From Acidihalobacter yilgarnensis (lineage in GTDB: Bacteria; Pseudomonadota; Gammaproteobacteria; DSM-5130; Acidihalobacteraceae), in NCBI RefSeq assembly GCF_001753245.1, contig NZ_CP017415.1, positions 3,094,040 to 3,158,039 on the forward strand: a DNA stretch of 64,000 nucleotides. The letters run 5' to 3'. Below are positions 52,545 through 62,318 of the stretch, one piece after another. The notes under the pieces were generated by a model that was not told where the DNA came from, searched no databases, and saw only the letters and a program-made list of their open reading frames with translations. How positions within the stretch are numbered: the stretch's first letter is position 1; every line of letters begins with the position of its first letter. Made by a program: the position numbers and the translations under genes.

Positions 52545-53084
52545 TTACAGGCCGCCCCGACGTCGTCCGTTTTGACCGGCGAATACGGGGTTGGCATTGA
52601 ACTGCTGCGCCATAGTGAAAATCAGGTGGCTCGCAAGATACAGCCACACGCCGTAAACCAGATAATGGTGCGCCGTGAGATCCTCCGCGAACAACCGGAC
52701 CGCACCACCTTGATCGAAGACACCGAACAGCACACCGAGAAATCCGGTCAGGCATAACAAGCTCACTGCGATCACGCCAAGGCCCTGGCTCAACTTACTT
52801 CCCCAGCCAATGGATGAAGCGCGCACGCCAGACCACCAGCGCCACTGGAACGCGATCGCCAACACCAGGGTCACGGCCAGCGCATCGTGCATCCACATGT
52901 GATCGAATGGACCCGCGCGAAATACGCTGTTGCCACTCACCAATTCGAGCAAGACACCGACCGCGAGCATGGCGTGTAAACCTTTACTGACACACTCGAA
53001 GCCATGGCACTCGAATTTGAGTCGGCTTCCCTGTTCCGATTCCTTGACTCCAGAATCACCTTCCTGATCATTGATAGGCGACAT
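52545..53084 (-). CDS. Cytochrome b561-like membrane protein of the pet operon
   Basis: A 179-residue membrane protein with four helices (about residues 38-54, 62-82, 97-118 and 135-157). Histidines sit in or near helices: GLHAMLAVGV, DHMWMHDALAV and AHHYLVYGVWLYLASHLIF. This resembles four-helix b-type cytochromes (b561 or thiosulfate/hydrogenase b types), so it may bind two b hemes, but I cannot assign a subfamily. I chose the ATG at 53084 with GGAG upstream; the longer form would use TTG. It overlaps the end of the diheme cytochrome gene by 17 bp, so it is the last gene of the pet operon. Confidence 0.65.
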   Translation of the reverse strand: MSPINDQEGDSGVKESEQGSRLKFECHGFECVSKGLHAMLAVGVLLELVSGNSVFRAGPFDHMWMHDALAVTLVLAIAFQWRWWSGVRASSIGWGSKLSQGLGVIAVSLLCLTGFLGVLFGVFDQGGAVRLFAEDLTAHHYLVYGVWLYLASHLIFTMAQQFNANPVFAGQNGRRRGGL

Positions 53085-53850
53085 ACGCTTCAATCTCCGC
53101 TGTCATCGTCAGTGGGATGTGGCAACTGTGTCGTCGGATTCCCCCCGACAACGTGGGGATGAACGTAGCCAAGGCGAGAATTTCCTGCTTGTCCAGACGG
53201 CCTGCGATGTCCCGCATGATCCCATTGGGGTCGTTCGCACGCGTACCATCATGGAAATAGGTCAGTTGCTCGACGAGATAAGTTTTATCCTGCCCAGCCA
53301 AGCGCGGAAATTCGGGTGGGGTACCTGCACCGGTAGTGCTATGGCAAGCCTCGCAAGCCGGGACATCGGTTAAACGGATACCACCGAAGTAAATCGACTT
53401 GCCAGCGGCCCAGAGTGCCTTCGCCTGGGTATCTGTCGGTACCGGCTTCGCTTTCGGCGGCGGTAGCGAACCGAAAAAGGCAACCAAATCCTTCATTTCC
53501 TGTTGACCATGTATGGTCTTGACCGCATCGATCATCGTGCCCTTGGCGAGTGGATCGTCTCGCTTTTTCGACATGAAATCGTGCAACTGCTTAAGTAGAT
53601 ATTGCGGCCACTGACCTGCCAGATCGGGAAATCCCTGCACGGGCGAAATACCCGCCGCGCCATGGCAAACGATGCACATGGTTTTTGCATCTGTCTTGCC
53701 CAATTCCGGATTACCACCACTGATCACGCCGATCACGCCATTTTTCGGGTCAGCCTGCGCTGGGCCCAATAACGCCAACATGAGGATAGCGGCAAGCGAA
53801 CAAACGGCGGGCGATCGTCCATACGCCCTGAACGCATCCCAATTCATCAT
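53068..53850 (-). CDS. Diheme cytochrome c4-type protein of the pet operon
   Basis: A 260-residue exported diheme cytochrome. The signal peptide runs to about residue 33 (ALLGPAQA), and the heme sites are Cys59-Cys62-His63 (CIVCH) and Cys166-Cys169-His170 (CEACH). The FPDLAGQWPQYLLKQL and FPRLAGQDKTYLVEQL repeats mark the c4 family. It is longer than usual, with an N-terminal extension and a C-terminal tail. In Acidithiobacillus ferrooxidans both pet operons carry a c4-type cytochrome (cycA), so it is the likely electron partner of this complex. It overlaps its upstream neighbour by 4 bp. Confidence 0.9.
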   Translation of the reverse strand: MMNWDAFRAYGRSPAVCSLAAILMLALLGPAQADPKNGVIGVISGGNPELGKTDAKTMCIVCHGAAGISPVQGFPDLAGQWPQYLLKQLHDFMSKKRDDPLAKGTMIDAVKTIHGQQEMKDLVAFFGSLPPPKAKPVPTDTQAKALWAAGKSIYFGGIRLTDVPACEACHSTTGAGTPPEFPRLAGQDKTYLVEQLTYFHDGTRANDPNGIMRDIAGRLDKQEILALATFIPTLSGGIRRHSCHIPLTMTAEIEAYVAYQ

Positions 53851-54197
53851 TTGTCGCTCCTGAGAATTTCACGGATGAAAAGAAAAATGTAATAGAACGT
53901 CAGCGAAACCAGCAACACCACGAGCGGCGCCGTCAGTGGATACATTTCCTTGAAATTCGGTGCTGTCACGAAAAACCCAGCGCTCATCGCCGATAGCAGT
54001 AACGCCCTGCGTTCCGCTCGCTCGGCTATGCGGTAAGTCATGCTCAAGGCCAGCATGACCAACGCGAATAAAACCAAATTCACGATGCCGGGAATTCCCA
54101 GGTCGAGCACCAGCGGCATACCGAAGACAATGGCCCAGAGGCCACTCTTGTAGGAATTTCCGGATGCGGCATTCGTCAAACTAGGTTCCATGTCCAT
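53847..54197 (-). CDS. Small membrane protein of the pet operon, unknown
   Basis: A 116-residue protein with three probable membrane helices: about 20-36 (GLWAIVFGMPLVLDLGI), 38-54 and 88-108 (LTAPLVVLLVSLTFYYIFLF). It has no heme motif and no family I recognise. It lies between cytochrome c1 (60 bp upstream) and the c4-type gene (4-bp overlap), so it is almost certainly co-expressed. It may be an accessory subunit of the Rieske/cytochrome b complex, but that is inference from position only. Confidence 0.6.
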   Translation of the reverse strand: MDMEPSLTNAASGNSYKSGLWAIVFGMPLVLDLGIPGIVNLVLFALVMLALSMTYRIAERAERRALLLSAMSAGFFVTAPNFKEMYPLTAPLVVLLVSLTFYYIFLFIREILRSDK

Positions 54198-54257: not shown

Positions 54258-54944
54258 TTAGAGAATCGCGATAATGAAACCCACCACGGTCGCCAATCCG
54301 AACCCACCCACCACGTAAGGGCCGATCCGGTGGCGCTCGAGCACTGAGGGGTCGCTGGCATAGCGTAGGAAAGCAACGATATCGACCACCATGGTTTTGT
54401 ATTGCGCCGGCGTCATCGAACCCTTGCGGTAAAGCTGCCCATCCTTGAGATACTGACCGCCGTACGCAGCTAAAACATTGGGCATGGCTACGCTCGGAAA
54501 CACATGGTTGTTCCAACCTGTCGGGCGACTGTTATCCAGGTAAAAACTGGTTAGATACGTATAGATAAAATCAGGCCCCAGATAACGTTCGATCTGCGAC
54601 AAATCCGGTGGTGGCTTGCCGAAGAATTTTTGCGCTTCCTTCTCCGTCATGGTGACGGTCATGCCACCATGAATGTTCGCGCCATCAGGACGCATCACAA
54701 ATTTATCCAGTTCCTTTTGAGTCATCCCCAAGCCAGTCATCAGATTCATATAACGCAGATGTTCCACGCTATGGCAGGAGAAGCAGTTTTGACCGAAATA
54801 TTCGGCGCCGCGAATCACGGTCTCCTTGTTCATGGTGTAGTGCGGCATGCGCAGTACGGGAGCAGCTTCCGCTTCACACGCACTCGTCGACAGCATCCCT
54901 AGCATCAGGATCAGGATCGTTGCCATGCGGATTTGTATTGCCAT
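54258..54944 (-). CDS. petC: Cytochrome c1
   Basis: A 228-residue membrane-anchored cytochrome c1. The signal peptide runs to about residue 27. The heme site is Cys54-Cys57-His58 (CFSCHSVEHLRYMNL) and the axial Met is Met154 in HVFPSVAMPNVL, both diagnostic for c1. A C-terminal helix (VVGGFGLATVVGFIIAIL) anchors it, and the length is normal. A bc1-type c1 is thus combined with a split, b6-type cytochrome b, a mixed architecture. It starts about 50 bp after the fusion gene. Confidence 0.94.
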   Translation of the reverse strand: MAIQIRMATILILMLGMLSTSACEAEAAPVLRMPHYTMNKETVIRGAEYFGQNCFSCHSVEHLRYMNLMTGLGMTQKELDKFVMRPDGANIHGGMTVTMTEKEAQKFFGKPPPDLSQIERYLGPDFIYTYLTSFYLDNSRPTGWNNHVFPSVAMPNVLAAYGGQYLKDGQLYRKGSMTPAQYKTMVVDIVAFLRYASDPSVLERHRIGPYVVGGFGLATVVGFIIAIL

Positions 54945-54997: not shown

Positions 54998-56977
54998 TCA
55001 GGTCTCGCCGCCCGCATACCGCCGCGTGGTCCATCGTCGCACCAGGCTCAGCAGCGGCATTGCCACAAAAAACGCGAAGTAACCGATGGTGAACCAACGT
55101 CCCCACATCGCTAGCACGGGCGTCGCCGGCTCGAAACCGATCCACCCGAGGACGATGTAGCAGACGATCATGAAAATAAGCAGCACTTTGTATGTGTTAT
55201 CAAACAACGGGTGCTTCTTGACGCGAGCCTCTGGCGTGTTGTCCAGGAAGGGCACCAGGAACATGACCACAATGGCCAGTGTCATCATGAAAACACCGAG
55301 GTGCTTATCGGATATCGAACGCAGAATCGCGTAAAACGGCCCGAGGAAGAACAACGGGCGAACATCGGCCGGCGATTGAAGTGTATTCGCCGGTGTTGAA
55401 TTATCTTGATCGATGAAGATATTGAAAAATGTCGGCTCGAAAAACACGATAGCTGTGAAGATCGTACCCAAAAATGCGTAGAAAAAAAGATCCTTTTCGC
55501 GAAAATATGAAAACAAATCAAACGTGATGTTCACTGGCTTAGGCGTTGAGTCCGCATATTCAGAACCCAATGTCATCGACAATATCTGTTCGACTTGACG
55601 CGAGCAGGTACCGCATGATGATGCGGCGCGCGTAGTGAGACGCACATCTTCCACAGTAGACAAACTGTGCATTTTGATCGCACTGATAATTTCACCCTTA
55701 CTGACCGAATTGCAGGTACAAATCTCGGCATCGTCGGGCAGATTACTGACTACGTCGACGGCCTCACCACCTCCGCTACCACCGGTCAGCAGCACATCGC
55801 GGCGATCTGAAATATCCTCACCGTTACGTATTAATTCCTTGAACCATTGGGACAGTGCGACATCCCCGTACAAAATACAGCCCGCCACGCGGTTGTTCTT
55901 GATGCAGGCCTTTTTGTAGATACCGCTGCGCGCGTCAACGTACACCAGTTCGTCGATGCCGTCCCCGCCCATGATCTGCCCCTGCGAATACAGATCTATA
56001 CCCGTGATCTTGAGCTGCGTGGATGGCAATGAACCGTTATAGCTCGCCTCGACTTCACCGGACATGTAGCGAGCGAGCACTCGTGCCTGTTCGTAACACG
56101 GGTCGACCAATCCGTAGGTCCGCCCTTTATGCTGGACGCACTCGCCGATCGCGAAGATCGATGGATCACTGGTTTCAAGCTGGTCGTTGATCACGATGCC
56201 TCGATCGACCTTAAGGCCGATCGATTTGGCGAGTTCCACGTCAGGTACGATACCTGCGCAAACCACCACCATGTCGGCGCGTATCTCCTCGCCGCGCTGA
56301 AAGCGCACGGCCTCGACGTGCTCCTCACCAACGATGGATTCCGTCATCCGCGGGATGTGGAAGACGATACCTTTGTCTTCCAGGCGGCGCTGCAGCAGCG
56401 CCGAACTACCCGCGTCGAGTTGCCGCTCCATCAGCCAATCCGCGAGATGTACGACGGCGACTTCTGCACCCTGAACGCGTAATGCGTTGGCGGCCTCAAG
56501 ACCCAGCAAACCGCCGCCGATCACCACGACATGCGTATGCTTCCCTGCGCGTTCGAGCATGTAGTCCACATCATCGATCGTGCGGAAGACCGTCACTTCC
56601 GGCAGTTCGCGACCTGGAATCGGTGGCACCATCGGCTTGGAGCCCACCGCGAAGACGAGATAGTCGTAGGCCTCGGTCACACCCTGGTCGGAGGTCACGA
56701 TCTTGCGCTCGCGATCCACGCTGACGATGCGATGCCCCTTGTAGAGCCGGTTCCCGCCATCGCCGACCCAAACCTCGTCGTCGATCATGATATCCGGCAG
56801 CGAACGCTCATTAGCCAGCAACGGACTGAGCTGGATGCGATCGTAAGCCGAATAGGGCTCATCGCCGAAGACGATCACCTGATAGCCGCCCGGCGCCTGC
56901 TTGAGCAGTTCCTTAACGAACCGGCTACCGGCCATGCCGTTGCCGATTACCACCACACGTTTTTGTTCTGACACCAT
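54998..56977 (-). CDS. NirB-like FAD/NAD(P)H module + BFD [2Fe-2S] + cytochrome b C-terminal half
   Basis: A 659-residue fusion. Residues 1-400 are a NirB-like flavoprotein: FAD motif IGNGMAG (11-17), NAD(P) motif GGGLLG (154-159) and the second FAD motif SIFAIGEC (273-280). Residues 415-470 are a BFD-like [2Fe-2S] domain with Cys420, Cys422, Cys455 and Cys458 (CTC, then CGTC), as in the electron-input half of nitrite reductase NirB. The siroheme half is absent. Residues 484-659 are the C-terminal half of cytochrome b (subunit IV-like) with four helices and the conserved YAILRSI. The Qo-site PEWY motif reads PLFF (541-544). The preceding gene supplies the N-terminal cytochrome b. It probably links NAD(P) to the quinone site on the cytoplasmic side; direction is unproven. 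Confidence 0.9.
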   Translation of the reverse strand: MVSEQKRVVVIGNGMAGSRFVKELLKQAPGGYQVIVFGDEPYSAYDRIQLSPLLANERSLPDIMIDDEVWVGDGGNRLYKGHRIVSVDRERKIVTSDQGVTEAYDYLVFAVGSKPMVPPIPGRELPEVTVFRTIDDVDYMLERAGKHTHVVVIGGGLLGLEAANALRVQGAEVAVVHLADWLMERQLDAGSSALLQRRLEDKGIVFHIPRMTESIVGEEHVEAVRFQRGEEIRADMVVVCAGIVPDVELAKSIGLKVDRGIVINDQLETSDPSIFAIGECVQHKGRTYGLVDPCYEQARVLARYMSGEVEASYNGSLPSTQLKITGIDLYSQGQIMGGDGIDELVYVDARSGIYKKACIKNNRVAGCILYGDVALSQWFKELIRNGEDISDRRDVLLTGGSGGGEAVDVVSNLPDDAEICTCNSVSKGEIISAIKMHSLSTVEDVRLTTRAASSCGTCSRQVEQILSMTLGSEYADSTPKPVNITFDLFSYFREKDLFFYAFLGTIFTAIVFFEPTFFNIFIDQDNSTPANTLQSPADVRPLFFLGPFYAILRSISDKHLGVFMMTLAIVVMFLVPFLDNTPEARVKKHPLFDNTYKVLLIFMIVCYIVLGWIGFEPATPVLAMWGRWFTIGYFAFFVAMPLLSLVRRWTTRRYAGGET

Positions 56978-57035: not shown

Positions 57036-57686
57036 TCAACGTTGCGCGGAGCGGCTGGCTTCCTGCTCGATTCGGAGCGCATAAAGGTTCTGCAGATGCA
57101 TCACGATCAACGCGACCAGCGCCATCGGGATGACCGCAACGTGAAACGCCATAAAACGATTGATCGTGGGCGTGCTAACCAGCGGACCGCCGCGAATCCA
57201 GGTGATCAGGTCGTGTCCGATCAACGGGATGGAACCGAACAGGTTGGTGATCACCATGCCGCCCCATAGCGACATATTGCCGTAGGGCAAGATGTAGCCG
57301 AAAAATTCCTCACCCATGAGCAGCACCAATAAGCTGACGCCCCACAGCCATACCTTGCCGTTGCGTTTCTTGTACGTGCGATCCCAGAGGGCACGAAACA
57401 TGTGGATGTAGACGATGATGAACAGCAAAGAGGCGCCGGTCGTGTGGATGTAGCGCACCAGCCACCCCCAACGCACGTCGTACATGATGCTCATCACGGA
57501 GTTGTATGCACCGGAGCCGTCGGCACCACCCGGGTGATAACTCATCAACAGAAAAACACCGGTGATGAACTGAATGCCGATCAATACGATCGACATTGCC
57601 CCCAGCACGCGCCAGAAGCGCGATCTCAACGCCTTGACCTTGGTGCCCAAGTCGGGCGCCGCACTCGCATTTACACTCGCCATCAC
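57036..57686 (-). CDS. petB: Cytochrome b N-terminal half (b6-type)
   Basis: A 216-residue four-helix cytochrome b subunit corresponding to cytochrome b6 or the N-terminal half of bc1 cytochrome b. The heme ligands are His81 and His95 (HX13H) and His182 and His197 (HX14H). The 14-residue spacing in the second pair is typical of b6-type cytochromes. GYILPYGNMSLWGGMVITNL is the conserved helix C-D stretch. The protein ends after helix D, so the missing helices must come from the fusion protein encoded 58 bp downstream. It follows petA by about 50 bp. Confidence 0.95.
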   Translation of the reverse strand: MMASVNASAAPDLGTKVKALRSRFWRVLGAMSIVLIGIQFITGVFLLMSYHPGGADGSGAYNSVMSIMYDVRWGWLVRYIHTTGASLLFIIVYIHMFRALWDRTYKKRNGKVWLWGVSLLVLLMGEEFFGYILPYGNMSLWGGMVITNLFGSIPLIGHDLITWIRGGPLVSTPTINRFMAFHVAVIPMALVALIVMHLQNLYALRIEQEASRSAQR

Positions 57687-57738: not shown

Positions 57739-58350
57739 TCAGCACAGCTTCGCCTTGGGCCACATTTTGGTCACCACCACCTTCTTGCCGCCGTTTTCAT
57801 AGTGGTATTCCGGAATAGCCATATTGCGCGGCGCTGGCGAGGTCACGATGACGCGCGCCGAGAGGTCATACATGGACCCATGGCACGGGCAGTGGAAACC
57901 GCCCAACCAACCGGGTCGGACCGAATTCGGTTTAGGTTTGTAGAGGGGAATGCAGCACATGTGCGTGCAGATACGCACCAGCACGAGCATGTTTTTCTGT
58001 TCCATACGCGCGCGGTAGATGTTCTTCGCGTAGGGCGGTTGCTGCGGCACCTTGAGATCGGGGTCCTTCAAAATTCCCTGCGCCTGCACCTTTTCAAGGG
58101 TCGCCAACATCGCCGGTGTACGATTCATCACCATGACCGCCTTACCCTGCCAGGGTACGGTTACCTGTCCACCAGGCGGCACCTTGGTTACGTCGATCTC
58201 GACACTAGAAGCGGCCTCGACGGCCGCACTTGGATTCAGGCCATCCAGCATGGGCACACCCAGCGCACCCACGGTGGCTGCACCGGCGAGCTTTACGCTG
58301 GAACTGAGAAACTCCCGGCGTTCCTCCTGCTTTTCTTTGCGTACGGTCAT
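57739..58350 (-). CDS. petA: Rieske iron-sulfur protein
   Basis: The [2Fe-2S] Rieske subunit of a bc1/b6f-type complex. Cluster ligands are in CTHMCCIPLYKP and FHCPCHGSMYD (Cys and His of CTH, Cys and His of CPCH, plus the disulfide pair). The N-terminus has a twin-arginine-type motif, ERREFLSSSVKLAG, followed by the membrane anchor, as expected for Tat export. I chose the ATG at 58350 with GAGG six bases upstream (203 residues). The frame is open to 58434 and a longer start is possible. It is the first gene of the pet operon; an AT-rich region upstream probably holds the promoter. Confidence 0.94.
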   Translation of the reverse strand: MTVRKEKQEERREFLSSSVKLAGAATVGALGVPMLDGLNPSAAVEAASSVEIDVTKVPPGGQVTVPWQGKAVMVMNRTPAMLATLEKVQAQGILKDPDLKVPQQPPYAKNIYRARMEQKNMLVLVRICTHMCCIPLYKPKPNSVRPGWLGGFHCPCHGSMYDLSARVIVTSPAPRNMAIPEYHYENGGKKVVVTKMWPKAKLC

Positions 58351-58720
58351 CTCTGTCCTCTGAATGTCAGCCTTGGGCAGGACTACCATTGCGGGTTTCG
58401 TGCCAAATTTCTTATCCGAGCATAAATTCAACACATGAAACCGAATAAACTTAAATAAAAACTATATAAAACAATCATTTAATAGATATAAACTTAGGCG
58501 CACATATGACGCCGCAGGCAATAATCTCAATCCAATACGCACGAAAAGTGGAGCGAAACGAGCCACCGCTGAAGTGATTCATTTCACAATGGGTCAGCGA
58601 TGAGGGCCCTGATGGTCATCACAGGACCGAGCATGACGCGCACGCCCATCTGGCACCGCGTTTCCGTCAGGTGCTATCGCTTTAGGATTCAGAAGGGGAT
58701 CGAGACTCGAAGGGATCTTA

Positions 58721-60527: not shown

Positions 60528-61055
60528 ATGCCCGCCGCCTCACCGCGCCACAACCGTTATCGCAAAATTCTGATTCCAGCCATTGTGCTACTCATTCTCG
60601 GCGGCTTTCTTTGGCGTTATGACGCCGATCATCCAGCACCCGGTGCCCTGCCGGCACTCAGCCTCGAATCGCTCGCAGGCCATACCGTAATGTTGGGCAA
60701 GCTCAACGGAAAACCGCTGATCATCAATCTTTGGGCAACTTGGTGTCCACCGTGCCGGGCAGAGCTCCCGCTGCTCATGAAGGCCAGCCACCAATATCCG
60801 AATATGCAATTTTATTTCGCGGAACAGGGCGATTCACGCGCCAACGTCAAGGCTTACGCCGAAAAAATCGGGCTTACGCCAGCGCACATATTACTGGATA
60901 CGAACACGCGCCTGAGCAAATTCTTCGGGGTGCTTGGCTATCCCACCACGATTTTCTACAACGCAGCCGGGAATATCGTCGCGATCCACCGTGGCGAACT
61001 CACCTCATCCACGCTTAAGCAATATCTTGCCAGACTCGGTCACAATGCCGAGTAG
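60528..61055 (+). CDS. TlpA-family membrane-anchored thioredoxin
   Basis: A 175-residue periplasmic thioredoxin-like reductase of the TlpA/ResA type. One N-terminal helix (about residues 14-28, ILIPAIVLLILGGFL) anchors it, and the active site is WATWCPPCRAELPLLMKAS (Cys73, Cys76). The cis-proline region is GVLGYPTTIFYNAAGN. Such proteins reduce cytochrome c heme-site cysteines or the CuA/Sco cysteines. With two Sco genes divergent from it (118-bp gap) and heme A genes nearby, a role in oxidase maturation fits best. Confidence 0.88.
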   Translation: MPAASPRHNRYRKILIPAIVLLILGGFLWRYDADHPAPGALPALSLESLAGHTVMLGKLNGKPLIINLWATWCPPCRAELPLLMKASHQYPNMQFYFAEQGDSRANVKAYAEKIGLTPAHILLDTNTRLSKFFGVLGYPTTIFYNAAGNIVAIHRGELTSSTLKQYLARLGHNAE

Positions 61056-61673: not shown

Positions 61674-62237
61674 TTACTTAACGATGATCTTGCCAAACAT
61701 GCCGGTCGAGGCATGACCCGGCGTCTTGCACAGATAGTAGTACGTTCCTGCGCCTGGCGGCGTCCATTCAACGGTATCGGTGTTGAACTGGCCACCGCTG
61801 GCCGCAGGCAGCTCCGGCACTTCTGCCATCGCATGCAGCGAACTCGGGTTAGGCATCGCCGAGAACGGAGGACCCTTCTTGGTGATCATGAAGCTGTGCT
61901 CGGCACCACCGTTGGTGTTGATCACGGTGATCGTGACCTTCTTGACTCCAGCATCGTAAACCAGTGTTGGGTTGGTTTGCTTATCCGCCTCGAACGAAGG
62001 GAATGGGAAGCCGGGCAACACCTGCTCAATCACTGTATGTGGGGTGGCTCCAGAGTAGGTCACTTCGTTCTTGCCACTCACCTTACCGGTGTCCGCCTTC
62101 ATCAGCTTGACGACACCAGGCTTGCCGACGGTCGTCACGCCGGCTTGGGCAATACCCACGGCCAGCAACGCACTCACGCCAGCGACGCCGGCAATCATCT
62201 TGACGATGCGGTTTTTCACGAACTTATCCTTCTTCAT
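61674..62237 (-). CDS. rus: Rusticyanin (type I blue copper protein)
   Basis: A 187-residue precursor, the same length as the Acidithiobacillus ferrooxidans protein as I remember it. The signal peptide runs to about residue 32 (IAQA). The type I copper ligands are His114 (GAEHSFMITKKGPP), Cys170, His175 and Met180 (YYYLCKTPGHASTGMFGKI). VLPGFPFPSFEADKQTNPTL matches the family core. It carries electrons from iron(II) oxidation in the periplasm to c cytochromes and the aa3 oxidase. I chose the ATG at 62237 for its strong Shine-Dalgarno GAGGAGG. It is the best marker for iron oxidation in this window. Confidence 0.97.
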   Translation of the reverse strand: MKKDKFVKNRIVKMIAGVAGVSALLAVGIAQAGVTTVGKPGVVKLMKADTGKVSGKNEVTYSGATPHTVIEQVLPGFPFPSFEADKQTNPTLVYDAGVKKVTITVINTNGGAEHSFMITKKGPPFSAMPNPSSLHAMAEVPELPAASGGQFNTDTVEWTPPGAGTYYYLCKTPGHASTGMFGKIIVK

Positions 62238-62318
62238 ACTTTCCTCCTCAGACAAAATTGTGCATCTATCGCTGCACAGCCATCGTCACAACCCCATCGC
62301 GAGCACCTGATGACGTGC

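Follow-up and report, generated by a model that had tools for sequence, protein, structure and literature searches.

The window, a stretch of 64,000 nucleotides of the Acidihalobacter yilgarnensis genome (contig NZ_CP017415.1, positions 3,094,040 to 3,158,039), contains on its minus strand a gene encoding, in one frame of 659 residues, a NirB-type FAD/NAD(P)H reductase, a BFD [2Fe-2S] domain and helices E-H of cytochrome b, within a group of genes for a bc1-type complex. The fusion is real and is under purifying selection in the genus. From the sequences, NAD(H) probably replaces the N-side quinone as the partner of heme bH. As a whole explanation we tentatively propose, at somewhat less than an even chance, a bc1-derived complex in which NAD(H) has taken over the N-side quinone-reducing (Qi) site and which would run as a confurcation. 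The fusion and the other half of its cytochrome b are located as follows, in positions of the window:

54998..56977, minus strand: fusion of NirB-type FAD/NAD(P)H reductase, BFD [2Fe-2S] domain and cytochrome b helices E-H, 659 residues (frame, Pfam, TIGR02374, alignment).
55544..56959, minus strand: NirB-type module, residues 7-478 (FAD motif 12-17, NAD motif 154-159, BFD cysteines 420/422/455/458).
55001..55522, minus strand: C-terminal half of cytochrome b, residues about 486-659, with four hydrophobic segments (Pfam, alignment).
57036..57686, minus strand: N-terminal half of cytochrome b (helices A-D), with the four heme histidines, a Tyr in place of the Qi histidine and no N-terminal YYAPKNFN-like segment.

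The open reading frame of the fusion starts with ATG and runs for 659 codons on the minus strand; the plus-strand frame is full of stops. As originally predicted, the frame is intact and holds the FAD motif (now read at 12-17), the NAD(P) motif and the four cysteines, and Pfam identifies the N-terminal half of cytochrome b as a separate gene. The three domains expected in the fusion, Pyr_redox_2 (residues 7-287, 6.6e-59), Fer2_BFD (419-467, 1.8e-14) and Cytochrom_B_C (529-634, 8.9e-24), were all matched above gathering score in the claimed order, and Rubredoxin_C (318-386, 9e-23) was also above its gathering score. Residues 8-479 align with positions 1-478 of the 794 of the NirB profile TIGR02374 (1.1e-147), at 493.7 bits against a cut-off of 578.35, and the siroheme part of the profile (479-794) shows no match; the module is, as claimed, of NirB type with its siroheme output replaced by cytochrome b. 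Residues 1-479 are 46-51% identical to the best spanning NirB-like matches in other gammaproteobacteria, from which the fusion differs in having cytochrome b instead of the siroheme/[4Fe-4S] half. The source genome (G000, a single contig of 3,566,941 bases) also encodes a separate complete NirB of 826 residues (TIGR02374, 976.4 bits). The motifs for FAD, NAD, the BFD cluster, two hemes b, the Rieske cluster and cytochrome c1 are intact in the proteins of the locus. An AlphaFold2 model of the fusion alone (32-row alignment) reached a predicted local distance difference test score of 73.9 and a predicted template modeling score of 0.59, with the reductase mostly fair. Foldseek searches with this model gave NAD(H)-dependent ferredoxin reductases as best matches (5.2e-28), and the 50 best rows contained ferredoxin-reductase-like and related flavoproteins only, with no cytochrome b match among the matches listed.

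As anticipated, the fusion is not confined to one genome: the three genomes examined from the genus all carry it, and the two examined from the sister genus lack it. The proteins of G001 and G002 are 92 and 89% identical to that of the source genome, have the same 659 residues and align free of gaps, which excludes a reading error. Nonsynonymous (dN) and synonymous (dS) divergence of the whole gene, estimated with NG86, were 0.050/1.44, 0.072/2.37 and 0.067/1.33 in the three genome pairs, a dN/dS ratio of about 0.03-0.05 with dS near saturation. The flavin and cytochrome parts shared this low ratio; dS was undefined in two of the three comparisons of the BFD domain and in one of the three of the linker. 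Constraint is weaker in the 17-residue linker (dN 0.12-0.22). Of the two sister-genus genomes, one shows only one cytochrome b, which is not fused, and G003 has no Cytochrom_B_C match. G003, which is 99% complete, nevertheless contains rusticyanin-like genes.

Whole-genome searches covered the Pseudomonadota. Residues 410-659, which span the junction, served as a profile for searching 369 class genomes and 398 phylum genomes; together with the search that covered the genus, these make at most 748 distinct genomes. Among the matches listed, only genus members matched across the junction, and a weak fusion in a distant genome may have escaped. G210, whose cupredoxin-coxB-coxA-ctaB-rus cluster resembles by eye that given for Acidiferrobacter in the available part of PMC10654088, shows a sole cytochrome b, which is unfused. 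Other phyla were covered by two contig scans and a plasmid collection. The contig scans, with the fusion and with a rusticyanin alignment, gave no relative; their patterns were short exact peptides, and near genomes may be left out of the scanned set. Searches of the plasmid collection with tblastn found no fusion among the matches listed. With the junction as query, one record (H14) reached 82% coverage and holds an unsplit cytochrome b gene of 1269 bases between petA and cytochrome c1. The whole protein as query matched 1365 records, of which 16 reached 80% coverage, and the one of these examined (H34) shows an 873-residue reductase followed by a siroheme-type half, a NirB by eye.

The cytochrome b of the locus is of bc1 type. 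The best PDB match of the N-terminal half is the cytochrome b 8smr_I (2.2e-51), which we take to be that of Pseudomonas bc1, and the best b6 match is at 8.5e-27. The same 8smr_I is the best cytochrome match of the C-terminal half (2.9e-22), whose four hydrophobic segments correspond to bc1 helices E-H. The D-E loop of bc1 cytochrome b faces the cytoplasm in known structures. The bc1-like N-terminal half and the presence of helices E-H therefore mark the protein as a bc1 cytochrome b that is broken in this loop, and the NAD(H) module is joined at the break, at the Qi site. A b6f arrangement, with b6, a three-helix subunit IV and b6-type sequence, does not agree with the four segments and the bc1-like N-terminal half; a subunit IV of three helices, with helix H lost, was considered and dropped, four hydrophobic segments being seen. 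As for bc1, the four heme histidines, the Rieske protein and cytochrome c1 were found, but not a complete Qi site with His, SNN, FHPYY and Lys-Asp.

These residues were compared in an alignment of 42 cytochromes b (three fusions, two further copies of the source genome and 37 fetched loci, two of them partial), to which no motif filter was applied and whose 37 loci are the best matches to the fusion rather than a random sample. The four heme histidines are kept in all three fusions and in the 38 others with letters there. On the other hand, none of the fusions has the Qi histidine, SNN or the His and Pro of FHPYY, all of which 39 of 39 others have (the Phe of FHPYY is found in 38 of 39), and the Qi pocket of the fusions retains only Lys-Asp and one Tyr. 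A second alignment added five bc1 proteins, three of which come from genus mates, and all five keep the Qi histidine, SNN and the His and Pro of FHPYY; furthermore, the YYAPKNFN-like N-terminal segment is found in the seven non-fusion proteins of this alignment (two repeated from the first alignment) and in none of the fusions. In yeast, His202 and Asp229 hydrogen-bond the Qi quinone, according to excerpts of PMC9162462. The loss of Qi residues supports an exchange of electrons between the bc complex and NAD(H).

The source genome contains two further unsplit cytochromes b with adjoining Rieske and c1 genes. Unfused cytochromes b with intact Qi residues number two in G000, two in G001 and one in G002, and from their sequences can presumably do the ordinary bc1 job. 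One of the loci in the source genome (L019, G000:C1:2200000-2212000) is a bc1 operon in which a gene assigned by eye to diheme cytochrome c stands between those for Rieske and cytochrome b. In unrooted trees, the flavin module of the fusion stands on a long branch apart from 12 sampled NirB-like modules, and its cytochrome part on a long stem apart from 37 bc1 proteins; unrooted and with such long fusion stems, the trees point to no donor for either half.

Where iron oxidizers get their NADH has long been asked, and the usual answer is that bc1 and complex I both run in reverse. In the explanation we favor, electrons would pass from NADH through FAD, the [2Fe-2S] cluster, heme bH and heme bL to the Qo site, the BFD domain exchanging electrons with heme bH in place of quinone. 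At Qo they would be met by the Rieske/c1/c4 chain, and NADH and reduced cytochrome c (ultimately Fe(II)) would jointly reduce ubiquinone with protons from the acid periplasm, a confurcation being the reverse of a bifurcation. Reversed complex I would then turn two quinols into two NADH, one of which would be reinvested. The net effect would be a lower gear for uphill transport, costing 12 instead of the 8 protons per NADH of the reversed bc1 route (our own stoichiometry, with 4 protons per complex I turn).

The energy balance used midpoint potentials at pH 7 of +90 mV for ubiquinone, -320 mV for NAD and +650 mV for the cytochrome c side, all textbook or assumed values, with a cytoplasm at pH 6.5, zero membrane potential and 1:1 ratios. 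The host is most likely a salt-tolerant, acidophilic iron oxidizer; A. yilgarnensis has its pH optimum at 2.5 and a range of 2-4, as given in the available part of PMC9062700. Splitting a quinol between cytochrome c and NAD+ was computed to cost +35.5 kJ/mol per quinol at a periplasmic pH of 2.5. With ubiquinone, the NAD+-reducing bifurcation is endergonic by about 30-41 kJ/mol at periplasmic pH 2-3, so that confurcation would be the feasible direction; NAD+ reduction becomes favorable only above about pH 5.65 or with an acceptor of about +1.0 V. The opposite reaction, NADH + 2 cytochrome c + 2 Q -> 2 QH2, releases 71 kJ/mol per NADH at pH 2.5. At the same pH, making one NADH from two cytochrome c electrons is at balance (+1.5 kJ/mol) through reversed bc1 and reversed complex I and comes to -90 kJ/mol through the confurcating complex and two complex I turns. 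A membrane potential of +20 or -60 mV left the sign unchanged for ubiquinone at pH 1.5-3. The original prediction had proposed that the bc complex itself exchanges electrons with NAD(P), as a shortcut making NAD(P)H. The exchange is supported by the Qi-residue loss; the shortcut is not supported, being endergonic by the amount given above, and complex I genes are present (the two subunits checked are the 49-kDa subunit and, 1.4 kb on, NuoF, the latter over its cut-off). Operation of the complex as a confurcation, a direction we infer from thermodynamics, is possible, with the balance leaning against it, and it is likewise less likely than not that a confurcating low gear would let the acidophile push electrons uphill at a pH where the ordinary reversed bc1 stalls.

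Several points weigh against this explanation. Its direction was computed from textbook potentials at 1:1 ratios, with membrane potentials kept small and the c-side partner taken to be at +650 mV, and spending NADH to make NADH is an indirect route. Ubiquinone as the quinone is inferred from the missing menA match in the source genome and from a split ubiA match; with menaquinone the argument is weakened, since NAD+ reduction comes to -2 kJ/mol at pH 3, with a change of sign near pH 3. The AlphaFold2 model comprises the fusion chain only, without docking, with a weak linker (478-496) and poor parts in the membrane region. The Qi-site Asp is kept in 3/3 fusions (39/39 others) and the Lys in 3/3 (38/39 others), as K495-D496, and therefore some quinone may still bind. 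In addition, the Qo motif of the fusion reads PLFF (541-544), where W is present in 38/38 others and Y in 37/38, and therefore the Qo chemistry may be altered too. The same motif had been considered as a unique loss of the PEWY Glu, an idea that was dropped because Glu is also missing in the 38 others with that column, leaving only W->F and Y->F as notable; L019 also has F for Y there (PLWF). Concerning ubiA, the best match in the source genome (G000:C1:124311-125143) is below cut-off and lies in two overlapping frames (profile 1-120 and 119-280), which suggests a frameshift in the gene or in its assembly.

Among the alternatives, an NADH:quinone reductase with a rebuilt N-side site survives best, although we consider it unlikely. 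In it, electrons would pass from NADH through FAD, BFD and heme bH to quinone, alone or with a second electron from Qo in a modified Q cycle. The Lys-Asp pair kept in all fusions agrees with it, as does a fall of about 425 mV per electron (NAD -305 mV, Qi +120 mV, pH 6.5), and for cyclic electron flow through b6f, ferredoxin and FNR have been proposed to deliver electrons to the Qi site (excerpts of PMC5683061). The Qi histidine, SNN, most of FHPYY and the N-terminal segment are lost, however, and the aligned N-terminal stretch shows no Cys for heme ci/cN, as judged by eye against a b6 motif alone. Such a reductase would furthermore consume NADH with no energy conserved, in an organism that has little of it to spare.

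An NAD(P)H-forming bifurcation, in which a quinol at Qo gives one electron to Rieske, c1 and the oxidase and the other through hemes b and BFD to NAD(P)+, is improbable. Its list of parts is like that of the anammox proposal, whose sequences gave no unambiguous functional QN sites in the excerpts of PMC12954380. An iron oxidizer needs NADH; with ubiquinone as the quinone, an acceptor at +650 mV and a periplasm at pH 2.5, the reaction is nevertheless about 35 kJ/mol uphill per quinol. The Kuenenia complexes are not known to be exposed to pH 2. Kuenenia uses menaquinone (PMC12954380, same excerpts), unlike the ubiquinone that is likely here. Marginally less probable again is a redox sensor or safety valve, by which the oxidase would receive the electrons of excess NADH through hemes b and c1/c4, or hemes b would be kept reduced: G000 and G001 have two other cytochromes b for the main work, but G002 has only one, and the fusion gene lies by the rusticyanin/cox cluster and is under constraint in each of the three genomes. 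An assembly artefact joining two genes can practically be dismissed, the identical 659-codon frame being found in three genomes at 89-92% identity.

Compared with known systems, domain content, fusion and gene order agree with a putative NAD(P) oxidoreductase on the N side of a predicted Rieske/cytochrome b complex. The original prediction had pointed to Rieske/cytochrome b complexes with NAD(P) oxidoreductase modules in anammox bacteria, and the available excerpts of PMC12954380 do propose them, as the NAD(P)-Rieske/cytochrome b complexes Kuste4569-4574 and Kustd1480-1485. These share with the fusion locus a divided cytochrome b, a Rieske protein, an NAD(P) oxidoreductase predicted on the N side and an N-side quinone site that is not clearly functional. 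The electron link between hemes b and NAD(P) is a proposal there, and here the N-side placement is deduced from topology. The putative anammox NAD(P) reductases Kuste4570 and Kustd1483 are named apart from the b and SUIV-like proteins in PMC12954380, whereas here the reductase is fused in frame. They show DALI similarity to NfnABC and predicted [4Fe-4S]/[3Fe-4S] clusters, instead of the NirB/BFD type with a single predicted [2Fe-2S] found here. The excerpts describe a b6f-like anammox core with heme cN, a five-helix SUIV, multiheme cytochromes c and menaquinone; the locus studied here has a bc1-type cytochrome b, an ordinary c1, apparently ubiquinone, and an acid periplasm.

Canonical bc1, including petI of Acidithiobacillus ferrooxidans, which runs in reverse, resembles the fusion locus in its Rieske protein, the four heme ligands of cytochrome b, c1, a diheme c gene and an iron-oxidation cluster beside it; in the fusion locus, however, cytochrome b is split at the D-E loop, the NAD(H) module stands there and Qi residues are lost. 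FNR belongs to another fold family than the NirB-type reductase. The b6f complex has a split cytochrome b, and FNR, a pyridine-nucleotide flavoprotein, is reported to associate with it (excerpts of PMC5683061), but as a separate enzyme, whereas here the reductase is part of a bc1-type cytochrome b. The available part of PMC10654088 gives the gene order cycA-sdrA-petABC and does not mention a pet fusion. In searches of open-access papers, the titles and abstracts listed contained no description of a NirB-BFD/cytochrome b fusion, and a word search of the accessible parts of the Acidihalobacter papers PMC5216662, PMC6396713 and PMC9062700 found 'bc1' or 'cytochrome b' only in one reference title. 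In the accessible part of PMC5216662, rusticyanin was 9.7-fold up and a cytochrome c1 family protein was unique at high salt, which may or may not be the c1 of the fusion locus. The fusion hints at an unrecognized way of pushing iron's electrons uphill. If the favored explanation is true, the anammox-type idea would have been realized a second time, and independently, in an aerobe with ubiquinone as its likely quinone, and the proton cost of NADH would change; Acidihalobacter is culturable, which allows a direct test of whether, and in which direction, a Rieske/cytochrome b complex can use NAD(H) as a substrate.

The other genes of the locus are:

57739..58434, minus strand: Rieske [2Fe-2S] protein, start codon uncertain (TIGR01416, 183.1 bits; cluster box CTHMCC/CPCHGS).
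54258..54944, minus strand: cytochrome c1 (Cytochrom_C1, 61.1 bits; CxxCH and MP motif by eye; C-terminal hydrophobic stretch).
53847..54197, minus strand: conserved membrane protein of 116 residues, with a 4-base overlap with the diheme cytochrome c gene.
53068..53850, minus strand: diheme cytochrome c, c4-like by eye (profile matches).
52545..53093, minus strand: membrane protein of 182 residues, start codon uncertain, last of the gene group, conserved in three genomes.
61674..62255, minus strand: rusticyanin, upstream on the same strand (TIGR03095, 142.4 bits; cut-off 146.7).

Two SCO proteins, Rieske, the N-terminal half of cytochrome b, the fusion, c1, the 116-residue protein, diheme c and the last membrane protein follow each other on the same strand. 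Spacing from the Rieske gene onward is 60 bases or less, with overlaps in places, and a gap of 381 bases lies ahead of the Rieske gene. The locus stands beside a rusticyanin/cox cluster: coxB, coxA, a further cox-like gene, ctaA, ctaB (cox and cta names by eye) and rusticyanin are found upstream on the same strand, in an order that agrees, as far as seen, with that of Acidihalobacter. Rusticyanin is followed by a gap of 1323 bases holding an opposite-strand gene; a thioredoxin-like (AhpC-TSA/Redoxin) gene lies on the opposite strand at 60528-61055, between the rusticyanin and SCO genes. The diheme cytochrome c is a candidate link to the rusticyanin/oxidase chain.

The Rieske box CTHMCC is present in all three fusion loci, and the two other Rieske proteins of the source genome show CTHLGC and CTHLQC; judging from the motif, CTHMCC may tune the redox potential. 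The 116-residue protein, conserved in the three genomes of the genus and without a confident family, is a candidate extra subunit. In the 182-residue protein, ECHG, (M/V)HD and HHYLVYGVW are invariant in three genomes and no confident family was found; a b561-like assignment was dropped, its histidines being only partly conserved. Three strong matches to rusticyanin-like genes were found in the source genome, at G000:C1:3155716, 1589082 and 1726464 (109-143 bits, all below cut-off), with two weak matches besides. The G+C content of the window is 62.0%, against 59.9% for the A. yilgarnensis genome.

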